Source of the DNA: a virus
Direction: 5' to 3' (one strand)
Virus record (IMG/VR): IMGVR_UViG_3300021962_000197
Span: 1 to 45,361 of that record
DNA length: 45,361 bases
Numbering within the stretch: the first letter of the stretch is position 1; the number at the start of each line of letters is the position of its first letter. A program made the position numbers and the translations under genes. The notes under the pieces were generated by a model, which worked only from the letters and a program-made list of their open reading frames with translations, did no database searches and was not told the origin of the DNA. Positions 2,882 through 15,759 of this stretch are shown here, piece after piece.

Positions 2882-3373
2882 ATGAGATTAGACCGAATCA
2901 AAGAACTACTTTTAGAAATCGACACCATTTGTAAAGAGGATGGTATTGGTGATATATTTTCATACTCCAAAGTAAAGGAGGTTTTGATGGCGGCTCAATT
3001 GGGTCATATTGTATGTTCGGAGTTCTCTGGCGCAGATGGTATCGAACAAGATGGTAATGGTGCTGAATATAAGTCCACTATTGGTAAACGAATTACCGGC
3101 ACCTATAATGGTATTTCCGTTCAATCTACTTGGGAATCACAAGTGGAGTATTTGAAGAGGGATAAGATTGGTAAATATCCAAATCACTACTTCGCACGAT
3201 TTGATGGTAGTGTTATCGCCGAGTTGTGGAAGATGTCTTCAGATGATGTTCTGAAATGTCTAACTCCCAAACTCAAACGGGCATACCATTCCGTTGGTAA
3301 CAAGAAAGACCCACGATTGGGTGCAAGTATCTCTATGTCCGAGATTAAAAAGTTTGGAACTCAATTAATTTGA
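2882..3373 (+). CDS. possible PD-(D/E)xK restriction-endonuclease-fold protein
   Basis: 163 residues. A helical N-terminus (KEVLMAAQLGHIVCSEF, residues 31-47) is followed by an acidic patch and then the strand GNGAEYKST (about 59-67). A short strand follows, then YPNHYFARFDGSVIAELW (about 98-115). The arrangement D...(E)-x-K in EYK after a GADGIE turn, then a FARFD strand, is reminiscent of small type II restriction-type nucleases, but the assignment rests on motif layout only. No methyltransferase partner is adjacent. If it is a nuclease, host DNA degradation would be a plausible role; alternatively it is simply an uncharacterised phage protein. Confidence 0.4.
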   Translation: MRLDRIKELLLEIDTICKEDGIGDIFSYSKVKEVLMAAQLGHIVCSEFSGADGIEQDGNGAEYKSTIGKRITGTYNGISVQSTWESQVEYLKRDKIGKYPNHYFARFDGSVIAELWKMSSDDVLKCLTPKLKRAYHSVGNKKDPRLGASISMSEIKKFGTQLI

Positions 3374-9223: not shown

Positions 9224-9912
9224 ACGAAATAAAAGAAGCACTTTCAACCCACTGGGAAGAACCTTGGTGTATGGATAGATGGGAAATCATCAATCATATT
9301 ATCAAGCGTTACGGATTTGAATCTTACTTGGAAATTGGTGTATCCAATCCAAGGTGGTGTTTTAATATGGTATCGTGTCGTGATAAAGATGCAGTAGACC
9401 CTGGCGTTGAGTTTGAGAACAATGTCGCTAACTATAAGATGACCTCTGATGAGTTTTTTAAGTCCATCCCCAAAGACAAAAAGTGGGATGTGATTTTTAT
9501 TGATGGTCTTCATCTCGCTCAACAAGTAATCAAGGATGTTCACAATTCACTTGACCATTTGAACAATGGTGGTTTTATTATTATGCACGATTGTAGTCCA
9601 CCCAACATCTGGCGTCAACGAGAAAATTATTCTATTGATGGGTTCAACTATCCGTGGAATGGAACTACTTGGAAAGCGTACTACGCATTACGAATTACAC
9701 GACCTGATTTGACAATGGGAGTGGTTGATACTGATTACGGAGTTGGTATTATTCGTAGAGGTTCTCAAATGTTAGCACCTGCTGACAACACCTTCTATGA
9801 CTACAATGTCTTTGATTCAAATCGTAAGGAGTACCTCAATCTTATCAGTTGTGATGACCTCCAAAACTTTTTAGATGAATCTGATAGAAAGTATTTGGAT
9901 ATATCAAATTAA
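9220..9912 (+). CDS. class I SAM-dependent methyltransferase (Methyltransf_24-like)
   Basis: 230 residues. Motif I is YLEIGVSNPRW (36-46), with an acidic residue at VDPG (59-62). WDVIFIDGLH (89-98) and GGFIIMHDCSPP (117-128) follow, a pattern typical of the Methyltransf_24 type found beside glycan genes. The substrate is not evident; the adjacent FkbM methyltransferase and downstream GT25 and sulfotransferase suggest glycan modification. The final codons (YLDISN) contain the -33 element of the next promoter. Overlap with the upstream gene is 4 nt. Confidence 0.8.
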   Translation: MNEIKEALSTHWEEPWCMDRWEIINHIIKRYGFESYLEIGVSNPRWCFNMVSCRDKDAVDPGVEFENNVANYKMTSDEFFKSIPKDKKWDVIFIDGLHLAQQVIKDVHNSLDHLNNGGFIIMHDCSPPNIWRQRENYSIDGFNYPWNGTTWKAYYALRITRPDLTMGVVDTDYGVGIIRRGSQMLAPADNTFYDYNVFDSNRKEYLNLISCDDLQNFLDESDRKYLDISN

Positions 9913-9925
9913 TTTCGTATATTTG
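9895..9925 (+). promoter_or_regulatory. class B promoter
   Basis: TTG 9895-9897 (TTGGAT), N20, TATATTTG 9918-9925, with the TTTCG extension. The -33 element is inside the upstream coding end. The next start is ATG 9944. Confidence 0.78.
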
Positions 9926-9943
9926 TATCAAAGATTAAGAAAT

Positions 9944-11463: not shown

Positions 11464-12063
11464 ATGATATTTCATAAACATCAATTGGTTTTTATTGCGA
11501 TTCCCAAAACGGCTACTACATCCGTGTGGTGGTTGTTGAAGAATCGTACCGATGGGTTTTCAGGTCACCAACACATTTCAATGTTGGATTTATATAAAGA
11601 AAATGATAAGGACCTTGTAGATTTTTATCATTCGTTCACCATAGTCAGGAATCCATACACAAGATTCGTATCTGCGTACAAACATATGAAAAAGAGTAAC
11701 AATTTGTATGGTAATTCAACTCCACTTGAAATGTTAAAATATCTCTATGGTAAAATGCAGGAATCTGAAAATAAGATTCTCGAAAGACATTCGGTAGATG
11801 ATGTCTGGGTTCCTCAAAATCAATGGTGTTGTATTCATAAGATTCCTGTCGTAGATAGGATTATACGATACGAATCTTTGGAATCCGAATGGAAGGATTT
11901 TGTTGAGTTTCAAAACAACCGTATTACCATCTCAAACATATCAGACCAATTACCCCATCACAATCTTGGCGCTGGTACTGATATTATACTTGGTGAAGAG
12001 GAAAAGAAATATATTCAAAAGATTTACCGAAACGACTTTGAAATATTTGGATATTCCAAGTAA
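11464..12063 (+). CDS. sulfotransferase (Sulfotransfer_2-like)
   Basis: 199 residues. The PAPS-binding elements are visible: the 5'-phosphosulfate loop FIAIPKTATTSVWW (10-23) and the 3'-phosphate-binding segment FTIVRNPYTRFVSAYKHM (58-75) with Arg62 and Ser70. These are hallmarks of Golgi-type and bacterial carbohydrate sulfotransferases. The enzyme would transfer sulfate from PAPS to a hydroxyl, most likely on a glycan given the glycosyltransferase and methyltransferases upstream. The cofactor PAPS could be made by the APS-kinase-like protein at 14431-14865. It is the last protein gene before the RNA block, and its end overlaps the -33 element of the RNA promoter. Confidence 0.85.
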   Translation: MIFHKHQLVFIAIPKTATTSVWWLLKNRTDGFSGHQHISMLDLYKENDKDLVDFYHSFTIVRNPYTRFVSAYKHMKKSNNLYGNSTPLEMLKYLYGKMQESENKILERHSVDDVWVPQNQWCCIHKIPVVDRIIRYESLESEWKDFVEFQNNRITISNISDQLPHHNLGAGTDIILGEEEKKYIQKIYRNDFEIFGYSK

Positions 12064-12089: not shown

Positions 12090-12174
12090 GCCGATGTGGT
12101 GAAATGGTAGACACGAGGGACTTAAAATCCCTTGAACAGTAATGTTCGTGCCGGTTCGAGTCCGGCCATCGGTA
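12090..12174 (+). tRNA. tRNA-Leu (anticodon TAA)
   Basis: Cloverleaf with acceptor GCCGATG/CATCGGT (G1:U72), anticodon loop CTTAAAA, a long variable arm (class II, as expected for Leu), and T-loop TTCGAGT. The 3' CCA is not encoded. Confidence 0.95.
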
Positions 12175-12219
12175 CACGGAAACCCACATAGTTCTTTGAC
12201 TTATTGTCCCTATTAAGAT

Positions 12220-12296
12220 GCACCCATAGCTCAGCTGGATAGAGCAACGCACTTCTAATGCGTAGGTCGAAGGTTCGAATCCTTCTGGGTGTACCA
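12220..12296 (+). tRNA. tRNA-Arg (anticodon TCT)
   Basis: Acceptor GCACCCA/TGGGTGT, anticodon stem ACGCA/TGCGT with loop CTTCTAA, canonical D-loop and TTCGAAT T-loop. Discriminator A is followed by an encoded CCA. It reads AGA/AGG. Confidence 0.95.
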
Positions 12297-12298
12297 TT

Positions 12299-12372
12299 TA
12301 CCCCTTTCGTCTAATTGGCAGGACATCTGATTTTGGTTCAGCGAATCGAGGTTCGAATCCTTGAGGGGGTAC
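12299..12372 (+). tRNA. tRNA-Gln (anticodon TTG)
   Basis: Acceptor TACCCCT/GGGGGTA with the weak U1:A72 pair typical of tRNA-Gln. Anticodon loop TTTTGGT, T-loop TTCGAAT. CCA is not encoded. It lies only 2 nt after the tRNA-Arg CCA. Confidence 0.92.
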
Positions 12373-12381
12373 ACATACATT

Positions 12382-12463
12382 GGGAGTATCGCATAGCGGC
12401 TATTGCAGTTGACTGTAAATCAATCGCCTAACGGCATCGGTGGTTCGAGTCCATCTACTCCCA
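12382..12463 (+). tRNA. tRNA-Tyr (anticodon GTA)
   Basis: Acceptor GGGAGTA/TACTCCC, anticodon loop CTGTAAA, long class II variable arm as expected for bacterial Tyr, T-loop TTCGAGT. Confidence 0.94.
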
Positions 12464-12552
12464 CTCCCAGGCGTGTACTGAAGGTTTCCTTATTCCTTAA
12501 AAATAAGGTGGAGCTGAAGTGGCGGGTTGTTGGTGTCCCTTAACACCAAGTT
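12464..12552 (+). ncRNA. structured spacer RNA with two CCTTAA-loop hairpins
   Basis: This tRNA-sized gap between tRNA-Tyr and tRNA-Pro is not a recognisable tRNA. It contains hairpin CCTTATT/AATAAGG (12488-12508) with loop CCTTAAA, and hairpin TTGGTG/CACCAA (12530-12549) with loop TCCCTTAA. The shared loop core CCTTAA recurs in a hairpin at 13803-13825. It could be a small RNA, a processing signal, or a decayed tRNA. Confidence 0.35.
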
Positions 12553-12625
<73 letters not shown>

Positions 12626-12630
12626 CAAAT

Positions 12631-12702
12631 GGTCCGTTGGTCTATCGGTTAGGACACATCCCTTTCACGGATGAAAGAGGGGTTCGATTCCCCTACGGAC
12701 TA
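12631..12702 (+). tRNA. tRNA-Glu (anticodon TTC)
   Basis: Acceptor GGTCCGT/ACGGACT, anticodon stem CATCC/GGATG with loop CTTTCAC, T-loop TTCGATT. CCA is not encoded. Confidence 0.94.
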
Positions 12703-12703
12703 C

Positions 12704-12796
12704 AAAGTGGTTATAGACGAGCACGATTCTAAAGTGAGTTGTACATAATCTTTAGATAGTTAGTAGAAGTAGAAACCGCAAGTTTCTCACCACTTT
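12704..12796 (+). ncRNA. candidate structured RNA closed by AAAGTGG/CCACTTT
   Basis: A 93-nt stretch with terminal 7-bp helix AAAGTGG (12704-12710)/CCACTTT (12790-12796). Inside are TCTAAAG/CTTTAGA (12728-12756) and AGAAAC/GTTTCT with a CGCAA loop (12771-12787), giving a three-way-junction layout. There is no anticodon arm or T-loop, so it is not a tRNA. Its position in the tRNA transcript suggests a processed small RNA. Support is base-pairing only. Confidence 0.4.
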
Positions 12797-12803
12797 AATT
12801 AAA

Positions 12804-12934
12804 GGTACAAACCATATTTATTTGTACCGAGCGTAGTAAGGGAAGGAGTTGATAGAAATACAGCGACCCCACCTTCCCAATTTGAGAGTTTAAAAAGGGC
12901 CCTTCCGTTTTACGGCTTGTTGGGCCCGACTCTC
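12804..12934 (+). ncRNA. candidate structured RNA / leader with three stem-loops
   Basis: Three stem-loops lie in a row: GGTACAAA/TTTGTACC (12804-12828, loop holding the late-promoter-like CCATATTTA), GGGAAGG/CCTTCCC (12840-12878), and a nested stack. The stack consists of GAGAGT/ACTCTC (12884-12934) enclosing GGGCCC/GGGCCC and CCGT/ACGG. The last stack is terminator-like but is followed by only a weak T tract (ACTTTATT). No open frame covers it. It may be a small RNA or the 3' end of the first tRNA transcript. Confidence 0.4.
12811..12822 (+). promoter_or_regulatory. class C (late-type) motif
   Basis: ACCATATTTATT, matching the A(A/C)CATATTTATW motif seen before genes at 12987, 22556, 30660 and 40980. 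It lies inside an 8-bp inverted repeat. Assignment as a late promoter is inference from recurrence. Confidence 0.35.
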
Positions 12935-12953
12935 ACTTTATTAACATTGTGAA

Positions 12954-12963
12954 ACATATTTAT
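12954..12963 (+). promoter_or_regulatory. class C (late-type) promoter motif
   Basis: ACATATTTAT, 23 nt before ATG 12987. It is the same motif found before structural genes. It resembles the T4 late core TATAAATA read as TATTTATA, but its orientation relative to the gene needs experiment. Confidence 0.45.
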
Positions 12964-12986
12964 TATAGTAAATAAAACAAAAAGTT

Positions 12987-13247
12987 ATGAGTAAGATTTC
13001 TCGAAGATTATTCCAGGCGTTGGAATCAAAATACACCGCAGAGATTATGGATGCAAGAGCACGAATCTCAATCTATTTTGAAAATCCGGTCGCAATCGGT
13101 GAACACCCACAACATACTGAAGAACTTGATTTGTTAGTAACGCAACTGACTGACGCTACTGATAAGCTTTCTACACTCCGTGATAACTTTGGTGAGGAGT
13201 ATGGTGGATTTGATGAGAAGGACTCGAAAACTTTGTTGAAAGGATAA
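12987..13247 (+). CDS. conserved hypothetical phage protein
   Basis: 86 residues, helical, with the segment ARISIYFENPVAIGEHPQHT (about 24-43) flanked by two helices (ALESKYTAEIMDA and LDLLVTQLTDATDKLSTL). I recall this NPVAIGEHPQH pattern in short proteins of marine T4-like phages, generally unannotated. It is expressed behind a late-type motif, which hints at a structural or assembly role, but that is inference. It lies between the structured RNA region and tRNA-Ser. Confidence 0.7.
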   Translation: MSKISRRLFQALESKYTAEIMDARARISIYFENPVAIGEHPQHTEELDLLVTQLTDATDKLSTLRDNFGEEYGGFDEKDSKTLLKG

Positions 13248-13258
13248 ATCAACACTAC

Positions 13259-13343
13259 GGAGAGTTGGCAGAGTGGTCGATTGCGGCGGTCTTGAAAACC
13301 GTTGAGGGTAATACCTCCGGGAGTTCGAATCTCTCACTCTCCG
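13259..13343 (+). tRNA. tRNA-Ser (anticodon TGA)
   Basis: Acceptor GGAGAGT/ACTCTCC, discriminator G as required for Ser, anticodon loop CTTGAAA, long class II variable arm, T-loop TTCGAAT. Confidence 0.95.
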
Positions 13344-13385
13344 CTACGCAGTCAGATGTTTCTTTGAGGTACGGAAAAAAATATT

Positions 13386-13415
13386 TTGAAATATGAAAAT
13401 TATTTCGTATATTTG
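13386..13415 (+). promoter_or_regulatory. class B promoter of the second RNA block
   Basis: TTG 13386-13388, N19, TATATTTG 13408-13415 with the TTTCG extension. It lies 12 nt before the Gly-type cloverleaf at 13427. This is the only copy with 19 rather than 20 nt spacing. Confidence 0.72.
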
Positions 13416-13426
13416 TATCACAAATC

Positions 13427-13498
13427 GCGGGAGAAGAGTTAAAAGAAACTCGCTTATCTACCAGATAGGAGATGTTGGGGCAGTTCCAACTTCCCGCT
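13427..13498 (+). tRNA. aberrant tRNA-Gly-like RNA (anticodon ACC)
   Basis: A 72-nt cloverleaf: acceptor GCGGGAG/TTCCCGC, D-stem GAGT/ACTC, anticodon stem CTTAT/ATAGG with loop CTACCAG (U33, anticodon ACC), T-stem GTTGG/CCAAC, discriminator T as in Gly tRNAs. The elbow is abnormal. The D-loop TAAAAGAA has no G18G19, position 8 is A, and the T-loop GGCAGTT lacks TTCRA. A sister copy at 13986 has the same layout with compensatory stem changes, so the fold is supported. It may be a divergent tRNA-Gly, a non-decoding glycyl-tRNA or a decoy. Confidence 0.6.
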
Positions 13499-13547
13499 CA
13501 AAGTTTGTTCTTTGTTTTTATGTTTAATTTAATTTGAAAGATTTCTT

Positions 13548-13730
13548 ATGAAAAAATTCATCGCAATGTTCGCTATCGCAACCGCATTGGTTGCTTGTAG
13601 TGAATCTACTGAAGAAGTAGTTGAAGGAGTGGCTATTGATTCAACTTATGTTGATTCAACCACTATCGGAACTACAACTGACCTCGAAGATTCAGTAGTA
13701 GCAGAAGGTTTCGAAGCTTCTGCTGAATAA
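13548..13730 (+). CDS. small lipoprotein
   Basis: 60 residues. It has a classical lipoprotein signal: basic start MKKF, hydrophobic core AMFAIATA, lipobox LVAC with Cys17, then a Ser/Thr/Glu-rich tail (SESTEEVVEG) with no structured domain. Acidic residues shortly after the Cys resemble the surface-export signal of Bacteroidetes lipoproteins, so it may reach the host surface. It is an isolated gene between RNA genes. Small phage lipoproteins often mediate superinfection exclusion; that role is inference here. Confidence 0.75.
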   Translation: MKKFIAMFAIATALVACSESTEEVVEGVAIDSTYVDSTTIGTTTDLEDSVVAEGFEASAE

Positions 13731-13739
13731 CCTATTGTT

Positions 13740-13825
13740 GGCATAGACGCCGCCTGAAGACACTGGGTCTAGCCTCGTACCATTTCGGTACAAAGGGTTT
13801 TGGTAGTTGTACCTTAAACAACTAC
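13740..13825 (+). ncRNA. structured spacer RNA with three hairpins
   Basis: Between the lipoprotein gene and tRNA-Thr there are three hairpins: GGC-TAGAC/GTCTA-GCC (13740-13774, one bulged A), GTACC/GGTAC with ATTTC loop (13777-13791) and GTAGTTG/CAACTAC with loop TACCTTAAA (13803-13825). The last loop shares CCTTAA with the two hairpins at 12488-12549. It is not a cloverleaf. It may be a small RNA or a processing element. Confidence 0.35.
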
Positions 13826-13830
13826 TTGAC

Positions 13831-13906
13831 GCCACCATAGCTCAGTTGGTAGAGCTACTGATTTGTAATCAGTAGGTCGGGGGTTCGAGTCCCTCTGGTG
13901 GCTCCA
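13831..13906 (+). tRNA. tRNA-Thr (anticodon TGT)
   Basis: Acceptor GCCACCA/TGGTGGC, anticodon loop TTTGTAA on stem ACTGA/TCAGT, T-loop TTCGAGT. CCA is encoded. Confidence 0.95.
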
Positions 13907-13980
13907 AGGTATGGATTGAAGACAGTAATAAAACCGACTGCTGTGAATCTGATTCGAGTGTTACCGGACATCCATACCTT
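13906..13980 (+). ncRNA. candidate structured RNA with 11-bp closing helix
   Basis: AAGGTATGGAT (13906-13916) pairs perfectly with ATCCATACCTT (13970-13980), enclosing about 53 nt with shorter internal pairings such as CAGT/ACTG. No cloverleaf can be drawn. It is tRNA-sized, exactly fills the gap between tRNA-Thr and the second Gly-like cloverleaf, and would be released by tRNA processing on both sides. Confidence 0.45.
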
Positions 13981-13985
13981 TATAA

Positions 13986-14057
13986 GCGGAGAAAGAGTTT
14001 AGAGAAACTCGTTGTACTTCCAGTACGAAGATGGTGGGGCAGAACCACCTCTCCGCT
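13986..14057 (+). tRNA. aberrant tRNA-Gly-like RNA (anticodon TCC)
   Basis: 72 nt with the same layout as the copy at 13427: acceptor GCGGAGA/TCTCCGC (7 perfect pairs), D-stem GAGT/ACTC, anticodon stem TTGTA/TACGA with loop CTTCCAG (anticodon TCC), variable AGAT, T-stem GGTGG/CCACC, discriminator T. The D-loop TTAGAGAA lacks G18G19 and the T-loop is GGCAGAA instead of TTCRANN. Nearly all differences from the first copy are compensatory in stems, while the unusual loops are kept. That argues for selection on this form. Confidence 0.62.
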
Positions 14058-14063
14058 CTATAA

Positions 14064-14136
14064 GCGAAAGTAGCTCAGTTGGTAGAGCACAACCTTGCCA
14101 AGGTTGGGGTCGCCGGTTCGAACCCGGTCTTTCGCT
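14064..14136 (+). tRNA. tRNA-Gly (anticodon GCC)
   Basis: Canonical cloverleaf: acceptor GCGAAAG/CTTTCGC, anticodon stem CAACC/GGTTG with loop TTGCCAA, D-loop with GG, T-loop TTCGAAC, discriminator T. It contrasts with the two aberrant Gly-type RNAs upstream. Confidence 0.95.
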
Positions 14137-14139
14137 CAA

Positions 14140-14430: not shown

Positions 14431-14865
14431 ATGATATATTGGTTTTATGGTCAACCCGGTAGTGGAAAGACCACCCTCGCAAAAGCCCTCAAGGAACATT
14501 TGGAACTGAACAACCATCGTATGGTTCAACATATTGATGGTGATGAAATGCGTCACATATTTGATAATAAAGATTATACTAAAGATGGTCGTATGAAGAA
14601 TCTTCGTAACATCAATAACATAATCCGTTACTTGGATTATAAAGGATGGGATGTGGTTGTTTCAGTTGTAGCACCTTACAATGAAACTCGTAATGAGTTA
14701 AGAGATTTAGATTCACAATTTTATTATGTCTTTACCACGGAAACTCGTGGTCGTGAAGATTACTTTGTGGATAGATTTGAAATAGATTATAGGGACAAGA
14801 AAGTAGATACTACAAATAAGTCCGTACTACAAACATTAAATGAAATATTCACTTTATATAGGTAG
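14431..14865 (+). CDS. adenylylsulfate (APS) kinase-like P-loop kinase
   Basis: 144 residues, shorter than bacterial CysC (about 200). P-loop GQPGSGKTT at 7-15; HIDGDEMRHIF (34-44), matching the LDGDNxRxGL substrate motif of APS kinases; a DGRMKNLRNI segment (52-61) in the position of the D-R-x-x-N-I-R-R stretch; and VSVVAPYNETR (77-87), matching the SxISP(Y/F) motif. It would phosphorylate APS to PAPS, the donor for the sulfotransferase at 11.5 kb. Adjacent genes (nucleotidyltransferase, DUF2061) fit a sulfate-activation set. Other small-molecule P-loop kinases are possible. It overlaps the next gene by 26 nt. Confidence 0.75.
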   Translation: MIYWFYGQPGSGKTTLAKALKEHLELNNHRMVQHIDGDEMRHIFDNKDYTKDGRMKNLRNINNIIRYLDYKGWDVVVSVVAPYNETRNELRDLDSQFYYVFTTETRGREDYFVDRFEIDYRDKKVDTTNKSVLQTLNEIFTLYR

Positions 14866-15190
14866 ATGGCAACCCTGGCACGAGGGACACCAATGGTTGA
14901 TAGACCAACAACTCAACGAAGGTAATCGTGTATTACTTGCAATTCGTGATGTTCAACCCGATGAGAATAATCCGTGGACTGCTGACCAAGTTTATAAAAA
15001 CTTATCAAAGGTACATTATGAACTTATTAGACAAGGTAAAATTAAGTTAATCATTATACCTGATATTGATTCAGTTAACTATGGTCGTGGAGTTGGGTAT
15101 CAAGTTATTGAACACATCCCACCACAAGAGGTATCTGAAATATCGGCTACCAAGATTCGTGAACAAATGAGAACCGATGGTAAGTTATAA
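14840..15190 (+). CDS. HxGH-motif nucleotidyltransferase (cytidylyl/adenylyltransferase-like)
   Basis: 116 residues, smaller than NadM (about 170-180). N-terminal YIGRWQPWHEGHQWLID (6-22) carries the HxGH nucleotide-binding motif (14-17). The C-terminal ISATKIREQM (101-110) matches the ISxTxIR motif of the same superfamily (NadM, PPAT, ATP sulfurylase). It transfers a nucleotide to a phosphate-type acceptor. NMN adenylylation is the closest family match. Its position between an APS-kinase-like gene and DUF2061 raises the possibility of an ATP-sulfurylase-like role, which is inference only. Confidence 0.7.
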   Translation: MKYSLYIGRWQPWHEGHQWLIDQQLNEGNRVLLAIRDVQPDENNPWTADQVYKNLSKVHYELIRQGKIKLIIIPDIDSVNYGRGVGYQVIEHIPPQEVSEISATKIREQMRTDGKL

Positions 15191-15404
15191 ACGACATATT
15201 GCAAAAACTATAACTTGGAGAATCGTAGGTACTATTGATACCATTCTCTTGGGATATTTAATAAGTGGTGATATCACAATCGGATTAACTATTGGTGGTG
15301 TCGAATTATTAACTAAAATGGTATTATATTATGCCCACGAACGATTCTGGTACAAATACATCAAATATGGAATTGATAACAACTCACCCAATCAAGAAAT
15401 CTGA
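15177..15404 (+). CDS. DUF2061 membrane protein
   Basis: 75 residues. It starts SYKRHIAKTITWRIVGTIDT, the DUF2061 hallmark, with two hydrophobic segments (about 15-34 and 36-53) and a C-terminal ERFWYKYIKYG. DUF2061 proteins are small two-pass membrane proteins often encoded with, or fused to, APS kinase (CysC), which supports the sulfate-activation reading of this cluster. It overlaps the previous gene by 14 nt and the next by 38 nt. Confidence 0.8.
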   Translation: MVSYKRHIAKTITWRIVGTIDTILLGYLISGDITIGLTIGGVELLTKMVLYYAHERFWYKYIKYGIDNNSPNQEI

Positions 15405-15759
15405 TTTAGGGTTTCACGCAAATCTATTTGGAGGAAAACTACTCGCGTGGTTAGATGCGGCTGCTGCTGCCTATGCAATGCAAGTTTGTGATACTCCGAG
15501 AATGGTTACTGTAAAGATTGATGAGTGTGTATTCAAGAAACCGGCGAAAGAAGGTCAACTGATTAAGATATATGGTGAGGTCCATTCAGTCGGAACTACC
15601 TCCATCGAGTTGTACCTTGAAGCGCGAGCCCACAATGTTTATTCGGGTTCACAAACTCCAATCCTATCCACCAATATTACATTTGTTCGTATTGATGAGA
15701 ATGGCGATGCAATTCCGATAGCCGATAGGGTTCGAGAGAAGTATCAAAAAAATAAATGA
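15367..15759 (+). CDS. acyl-CoA thioesterase, hotdog fold (YciA-like)
   Basis: 130 residues from ATG 15367; ATG 15331 would add 12 residues deeper in the preceding gene, and family members begin close to this point. The sequence MELITTHPIKKSDLGF is followed by HANLFGGKLLAWLDAAAAAY (residues 17-36), the HxNxxGGxLLxWxD signature of type II hotdog acyl-CoA thioesterases. KKPAKEGQLIKIYGEV and the C-terminal strands complete the fold. It hydrolyses fatty acyl-CoA to free acid and CoA. A phage role could be host lipid remodelling. Its end overlaps the next start by 4 nt. Confidence 0.88.
   Translation: MELITTHPIKKSDLGFHANLFGGKLLAWLDAAAAAYAMQVCDTPRMVTVKIDECVFKKPAKEGQLIKIYGEVHSVGTTSIELYLEARAHNVYSGSQTPILSTNITFVRIDENGDAIPIADRVREKYQKNK

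Follow-up and report, generated by a model that had tools for sequence, protein, structure and literature searches.

Non-proteinogenic tRNA-Gly has been described in staphylococci, where it serves the FemXAB cell-wall pathway (PMC9976931). Phage tRNAs with altered anticodon loops have been proposed to evade anticodon nucleases (van den Berg et al. 2023, PMC10264068); these tRNAs have a normal body and are proposed to decode. Glycine is also known on phage DNA bases. The CmoX/CmoY system makes a cytosine glycine amide hypermodification from free glycine and ATP, with a ligase that acts on carboxymethylcytosine and without any tRNA (PMC12783734). The product of phage Mu Mom is alpha-N-(purin-6-yl)glycinamide (Swinton 1983, as cited in PMC3874153), and the donor has been proposed to be an acyl-CoA, e.g. 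glycyl-CoA (PMC7824862). A glycinamide is not what ordinary GNAT acyl transfer would make from acetyl-CoA, and for this reason the donor and the chemistry of Mom are in dispute.

Here we describe phage RNAs that resemble each of these systems in part. With the staphylococcal tRNAs they share glycine identity, altered translation features including the loss of G18G19, and the presence of several copies, and for both, the proposal is that an aminoacyl transferase passes the glycine to an acceptor outside the ribosome. Unlike the staphylococcal tRNAs, the phage RNAs have a GGCRG T-loop, an A-rich D-loop and a 15-58 pair, have lost U33 in many members, come without FemAB and are linked to a DNA-modifying enzyme. 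Altered anticodon loops are shared with the nuclease-evading tRNAs, but the present family is without the normal elbow, U8 and U33. With CmoX/CmoY the common element would be glycine on a phage DNA base. The proteins linked to the RNAs agree with Mu Mom (PF25680, PDB 8bv8) in profile, fold and the invariant Ser124, but Mu itself encodes no such RNA. A glycine tRNA conserved beside mom would be a concrete and testable answer to the question of the Mom donor.

The window, i.e., the whole stretch of DNA analysed here, is an IMG/VR record of 45,361 bases; it is a fragment without mom genes, and its relatives carry two. An initial annotation had placed in its tRNA array (Table 1) two full 72-nt cloverleafs with anticodons ACC and TCC that lack U8, G18G19 and the TTCRA T-loop, next to a canonical tRNA-Gly(GCC). 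All of this was borne out. The minimum free energies were -26.5 kcal/mol (copy 1) and -30.3 kcal/mol (copy 2), and 0/200 shuffles folded equally well. Reading the two RNAs directly showed the anticodon loops CTACCAG (copy 1) and CTTCCAG (copy 2), an A at position 8 in place of U8, and no G18G19. ARAGORN called nine canonical tRNAs in the array and neither of the two RNAs, and Rfam (4227 models, E<=1) gave no match on either. The -7 promoter element of Bacteroidota has the consensus TAnnTTTG; a match to it precedes copy 1, and the surrounding stretch 13402-13420 is repeated exactly at 9912-9930.

Table 1. Features of the tRNA array in the window.
Feature	Position	Strand	Remarks
Seven canonical tRNAs (Leu, Arg, Gln, Tyr, Pro, Glu, Ser)	12090..13344	+	ARAGORN; same array
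TATATTTG, match to Bacteroidota -7 element TAnnTTTG	13408..13415	+	11 nt 5' of copy 1
Elbow-swapped Gly-tRNA-like RNA, copy 1	13427..13498	+	ACC, U73, T-loop GGCAGTT; z -4.0; R1 covariance model 91.4 bits
Canonical tRNA-Thr(TGT)	13831..13906	+	ARAGORN; between copies 1 and 2
Elbow-swapped Gly-tRNA-like RNA, copy 2	13986..14057	+	UCC, U73, T-loop GGCAGAA; z -5.0; R1 covariance model 95.8 bits
Canonical tRNA-Gly(GCC)	14064..14137	+	ARAGORN; Rfam tRNA 69.3 bits; ordinary decoder adjoining the pair

Viral contigs were scanned with patterns that each left a different part of the RNA free, and with a covariance model, a search that the initial annotation had suggested. This gave 54 distinct sequences of the window type (group I/II) and 20 of a related group III. 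Among the first 29 distinct homologues, 99.7% of the pair cells were standard, 12 pairs had both sides changed, and the covariation was matched in 0/500 shuffles. The RNAs are thus maintained rather than decayed, as had been suggested, and because the homologues covary, a chance origin of the window cloverleafs is excluded. The D stem was invariant in these 29 sequences, partly since one pattern fixed it; in the wider set it occurs as GAGTT/AACTC, GACTT/AAGTC, GGGTT/AACCC and GTCTT/AAGAC, so that all four stems covary. We regard it as virtually certain that these sequences form a real family, so far undescribed and carried by many phages, of glycine tRNA-like RNAs in which the elbow is rebuilt. 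The family has been overlooked by standard tRNA finders, and it shows that tRNAs with another kind of elbow occur in nature. Our search of open-access papers, which did not extend to subscription papers and preprints, found no description of the family or of its link to Mom.

In 4.64 Mb of fetched DNA, every cloverleaf with a GGC(A/G)G T-loop was of the glycine type (U/A at 34, CC at 35-36, U73), bar one chance match, although the acceptor part of one search pattern, and not of the others, favoured glycine. A pattern scan of genome contigs gave chance matches only, and blastn of the window RNAs against cultured phages gave no match. A 33-bit match in megaphage LR756508 was rejected as a family member, as it is without the GGCRG T-loop. 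The stretch 438938-439009 of this megaphage (W03) is tRNA-like, with a GCC-type loop and a non-canonical T-loop ATCATTT, and the same megaphage has weak Mom-like matches.

The bacterial glycine identity set consists of G1-C72, C2-G71, C35, C36 and U73 (PMC9976931), and the group I/II RNAs carry all of it. C35, C36, A37, G71, C72 and U73 were found in 54/54 sequences and C2 in 53/54; G1 was present in all but one sequence, which is truncated at position 1, and G3-C70 is also kept. Since every glycine determinant is kept, these RNAs are very likely glycylated by the host GlyRS. The features of proteinogenic tRNAs, on the other hand, are absent: A8 and a GGC T-loop were found in 54/54 sequences, and the D-loop is without GG. 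Position 33 is T in 24, A in 28, C in 1 and G in 1 of the 54 sequences, so that U33 is lost in 30/54; the window alone gave no hint of this free variation, as its two copies share U33. A C32-G38 pair forms, covaries once to U-A, and closes the anticodon loop to five bases (NWCCA). Reading this loop as a Trp CCA anticodon was rejected, since U73 and the acceptor pairs are of the glycine type and position 34 is A in 15/54 sequences.

In the elbow, the RNAs have gained a GGC(A/G)G motif in the T-loop and an A(A/G)AG motif in the D-loop. Column 15 of the D-loop and column 58 of the T-loop form the strongest covariation outside the helices (A-U 32, U-A 4, G-C 4, G-U 1, A-A 5; standard in 41/46). 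Because the two motifs and the covarying 15-58 pair are gains, the elbow is re-engineered rather than absent. Judged from this conservation, the odd loops are a conserved alternative elbow, which goes beyond the missing features pointed out initially.

The RNA was present in 26 of the first 30 whole records searched, mostly in two copies that belong to two paralogous types. A canonical tRNA-Gly(UCC) is present alongside the swapped RNA in L170, L189 and L455; the swapped RNA has thus not simply taken the decoder's place. Two copies in most phages, together with a coexisting normal tRNA-Gly(UCC) in some, speak against decoding and favour a dedicated glycyl carrier, and a non-decoding role of the group I/II RNAs is likely. 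The staphylococcal-like role outside translation that was put forward in the initial annotation holds as an analogy, as glycine identity is kept, decoding features are lost and canonical tRNA-Gly coexists. It does not hold for the partner: the FemAB (PF02388) profile found nothing over the cut-off in 19 phage records, and Mom is linked instead.

Group III comes from marine phages and has swapped D- and T-loops together with U8 and, in 20/20 sequences, U33. Relative to the canonical tRNA-Gly(UCC) of L189, the differences are concentrated in the D-loop, which goes from ATAATGGTAT to ATAAAAGTAT, and in the T-loop, which goes from TTCGATT to GGCAGTA, with U8 and U33 unchanged. Group III may show how the elbow swap began, and its RNAs may decode. 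Its members in L502, L503, L504, L507, L511, L524, L549, L554 and others are tRNA-Gly(UCC), often with an encoded CCA, and the phages encode T4-type replication proteins (sliding clamp, RNase H). No mom was found adjacent to a group III RNA or anywhere in G033, and G031 gave a sub-threshold match only, which sits in a 518-aa protein and is not claimed as Mom.

The link of group I/II RNAs to Mom came from a comparison of the open reading frames of four RNA-bearing phages (G005, G001, G009 and G032) with those of two cultured relatives without the RNA, Microcystis phage Mel-JY01 and Flavobacterium phage immuto. About a dozen proteins were common to the four and missing from the two, and among them were two mutually adjacent Mom proteins, in tandem, that matched PF25680 with 165.6 and 158.4 bits. 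A profile search covered 48 records. Of the 13 group I/II records that have the RNA and measure 125 kb or more, 12 gave two to three Mom genes, and the RNA-less Mel-JY01, immuto and G006 gave none. In G035 the RNA occurs without a Mom match, perhaps since this record is a fragment. RNA and mom are tens of kb apart in these T4-sized phages, for example ~65 kb in G005. Because the big phages are one clade, the co-occurrence in 12/13 records does not represent 12 independent events, and alone it could be hitch-hiking.

Five other phage lineages have the RNA within 0-1.2 kb of mom, with CCA encoded in four of the RNA genes. The contigs L513, L553, L506, L354 and L350 were fetched by RNA patterns only. 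In L513 and L553 the RNA is directly 5' of mom, with no more than about 6 bases between its end and the Mom reading frame, and L506 begins inside the RNA, followed by the mom ATG. L354 has two mom ORFs, the second of which is overlapped at its end by the RNA, and in L350 a 70% GC RNA lies about 1.2 kb 3' of mom. The cultured Psychrobacter phage Y8A (L653, OQ059336) has tandem RNAs at 3162-3226 and 3234-3299, 8 and 80 nt after mom; the published paper on this phage reported no tRNA genes. The two Y8A RNAs are divergent, with shortened D arms, and compensatory changes distinguish the acceptor and anticodon stems of one from those of the other. With about 20 bits and an E of about 0.005 they score weakly by themselves, and their assignment is founded on where they lie, how they pair, their glycine identity and an encoded CCA. 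In both of them this CCA comes straight after U73, as it does in L350 and L354 and in five genes that are group III or divergent (L507, L519, L520, L530 and L549). A second mom is present in phage Y8A at 39,405.

Outside the two large groups, Mom was found in 5/13 RNA-bearing contigs vs 2/285 pattern-fetched RNA-less loci (p 1.4e-6); with lineages collapsed, by counts made by hand, the association had a p of 6e-7. Direct adjacency of RNA and mom thus recurs across phages that differ in genome type and GC content. The RNA was not found in most of the cultured Mom phages tested, Mu and A511 included, and L055 and L080 likewise have Mom and no RNA. Because such phages carry no RNA of this kind, their Mom would need host Gly-tRNA as the donor.

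The Mom proteins of the RNA-bearing phages matched PF25680 above the cut-off, and their fold model (pLDDT 87.9) had phage Mu Mom 8bv8 as the best match (E 5e-13). Ser124, which is mutated in the inactive S124A, was invariant in ten Mom proteins. We propose, with a probability of about 0.6, that the window-type RNAs are dedicated, largely non-decoding glycyl-tRNAs which donate glycine to Mom; the family, its charging identity and its linkage are read from sequence, and the transfer step is conjectural. After charging by the host GlyRS, as the identity elements predict, the rebuilt elbow and the loss of U8 and U33 would bar the charged RNA from the ribosome and mark it for a phage enzyme. This enzyme would be the GNAT-fold Mom, encoded elsewhere in the genome or, in other phages, beside the RNA. 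Mom would move the glycyl group from the tRNA onto the adenine N6 of phage DNA, giving N6-glycyl-adenine, an isomer of the known product. By our own reasoning, a Smiles-type shift through a five-membered ring, in which the free amino group attacks C6, would then yield N6-carbamoylmethyl-adenine. This is the glycinamide known from Mu, and it would shield phage DNA from restriction. Whether the proposal extends to Mom in general, with phage glycyl-tRNAs as the glycine donor where they exist and host Gly-tRNA as the donor in RNA-less phages, Mu included, seems to us an even bet. If true, DNA would join the known acceptors of aminoacyl-tRNA through a classic anti-restriction modification.

The RNAs could instead be decoding tRNA-Gly(UCC/ACC) of the usual kind, in which the elbow is odd, and aid phage translation of GGA/GGU codons. 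Their place within tRNA arrays fits such a role, as do the U33 and normal anticodon loop of group III and the group III arrays with 18-20 other tRNAs and no canonical tRNA-Gly (L502, L554). Decoding is nevertheless unlikely for group I/II, in which U8 is lacking throughout and U33 in 30/54, the Watson-Crick 32-38 pair shrinks the loop to five bases, and a canonical tRNA-Gly(UCC) coexists at three loci; it would also leave the mom linkage unexplained. That linkage could be mere travelling company if the glycine went to another non-ribosomal acceptor, such as peptidoglycan, a lipid, LPS or a peptide. Surface-polysaccharide glycosyltransferases, sulfotransferases and FkbM methyltransferases are encoded near the array, and group III has no Mom link. 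We find this improbable, given the result of the FemAB search and the direct RNA-mom adjacency that repeats across differing genome types and GC content.

A role as a decoy or sponge for host defence on tRNA-Gly, whether against anticodon nucleases or against TacT-like GNAT toxins, which acetylate Gly-tRNA(Gly), appears slightly more improbable still. The TacT determinants U73 and G71 are invariant, and nuclease-evading phage tRNAs with altered anticodon loops have a precedent (PMC10264068). But nothing in the gene context pointed to an antitoxin or to defence, the RNA adjoins mom in several phages, and two conserved paralogues with a specific new elbow are more than a decoy requires; the initial suggestion of a decoy of tRNA-cutting or processing enzymes found no support. 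It is scarcely credible that the RNA is a cis-acting leader controlling mom translation: it is immediately 5' of mom in L506, L513 and L553, but 3' of mom in L354, L350 and Y8A, and in the large phages it lies tens of kb away with its own promoter-like site. The encoded CCA also suits a tRNA end and not a leader. Donation of glycine to Mom by the window-type RNAs is the reading that we prefer.

The window array has several further features. A 60-aa ORF between the two RNAs (13548-13730) has the look of a small lipoprotein (signal with VACS) and no Pfam match. The spacers between the tRNAs at 12470-12552, 12704-12800, 13733-13826 and 13909-13981 have folding z of only -0.8 to -2.2, and 8-bp stems close those at 12704-12800 and 13909-13981. 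A sulfotransferase gene lies at 11464-12063, and directly 3' of the array (14431-15759) are APS-kinase-like, cytidylyltransferase-like, DUF2061 and thioesterase genes. Among the other phages, DruA-like proteins (PF14236) are encoded at L491:2037-3224, near mom in a group I/II phage, and at L519:6225-7391, in a phage with a divergent swapped RNA.
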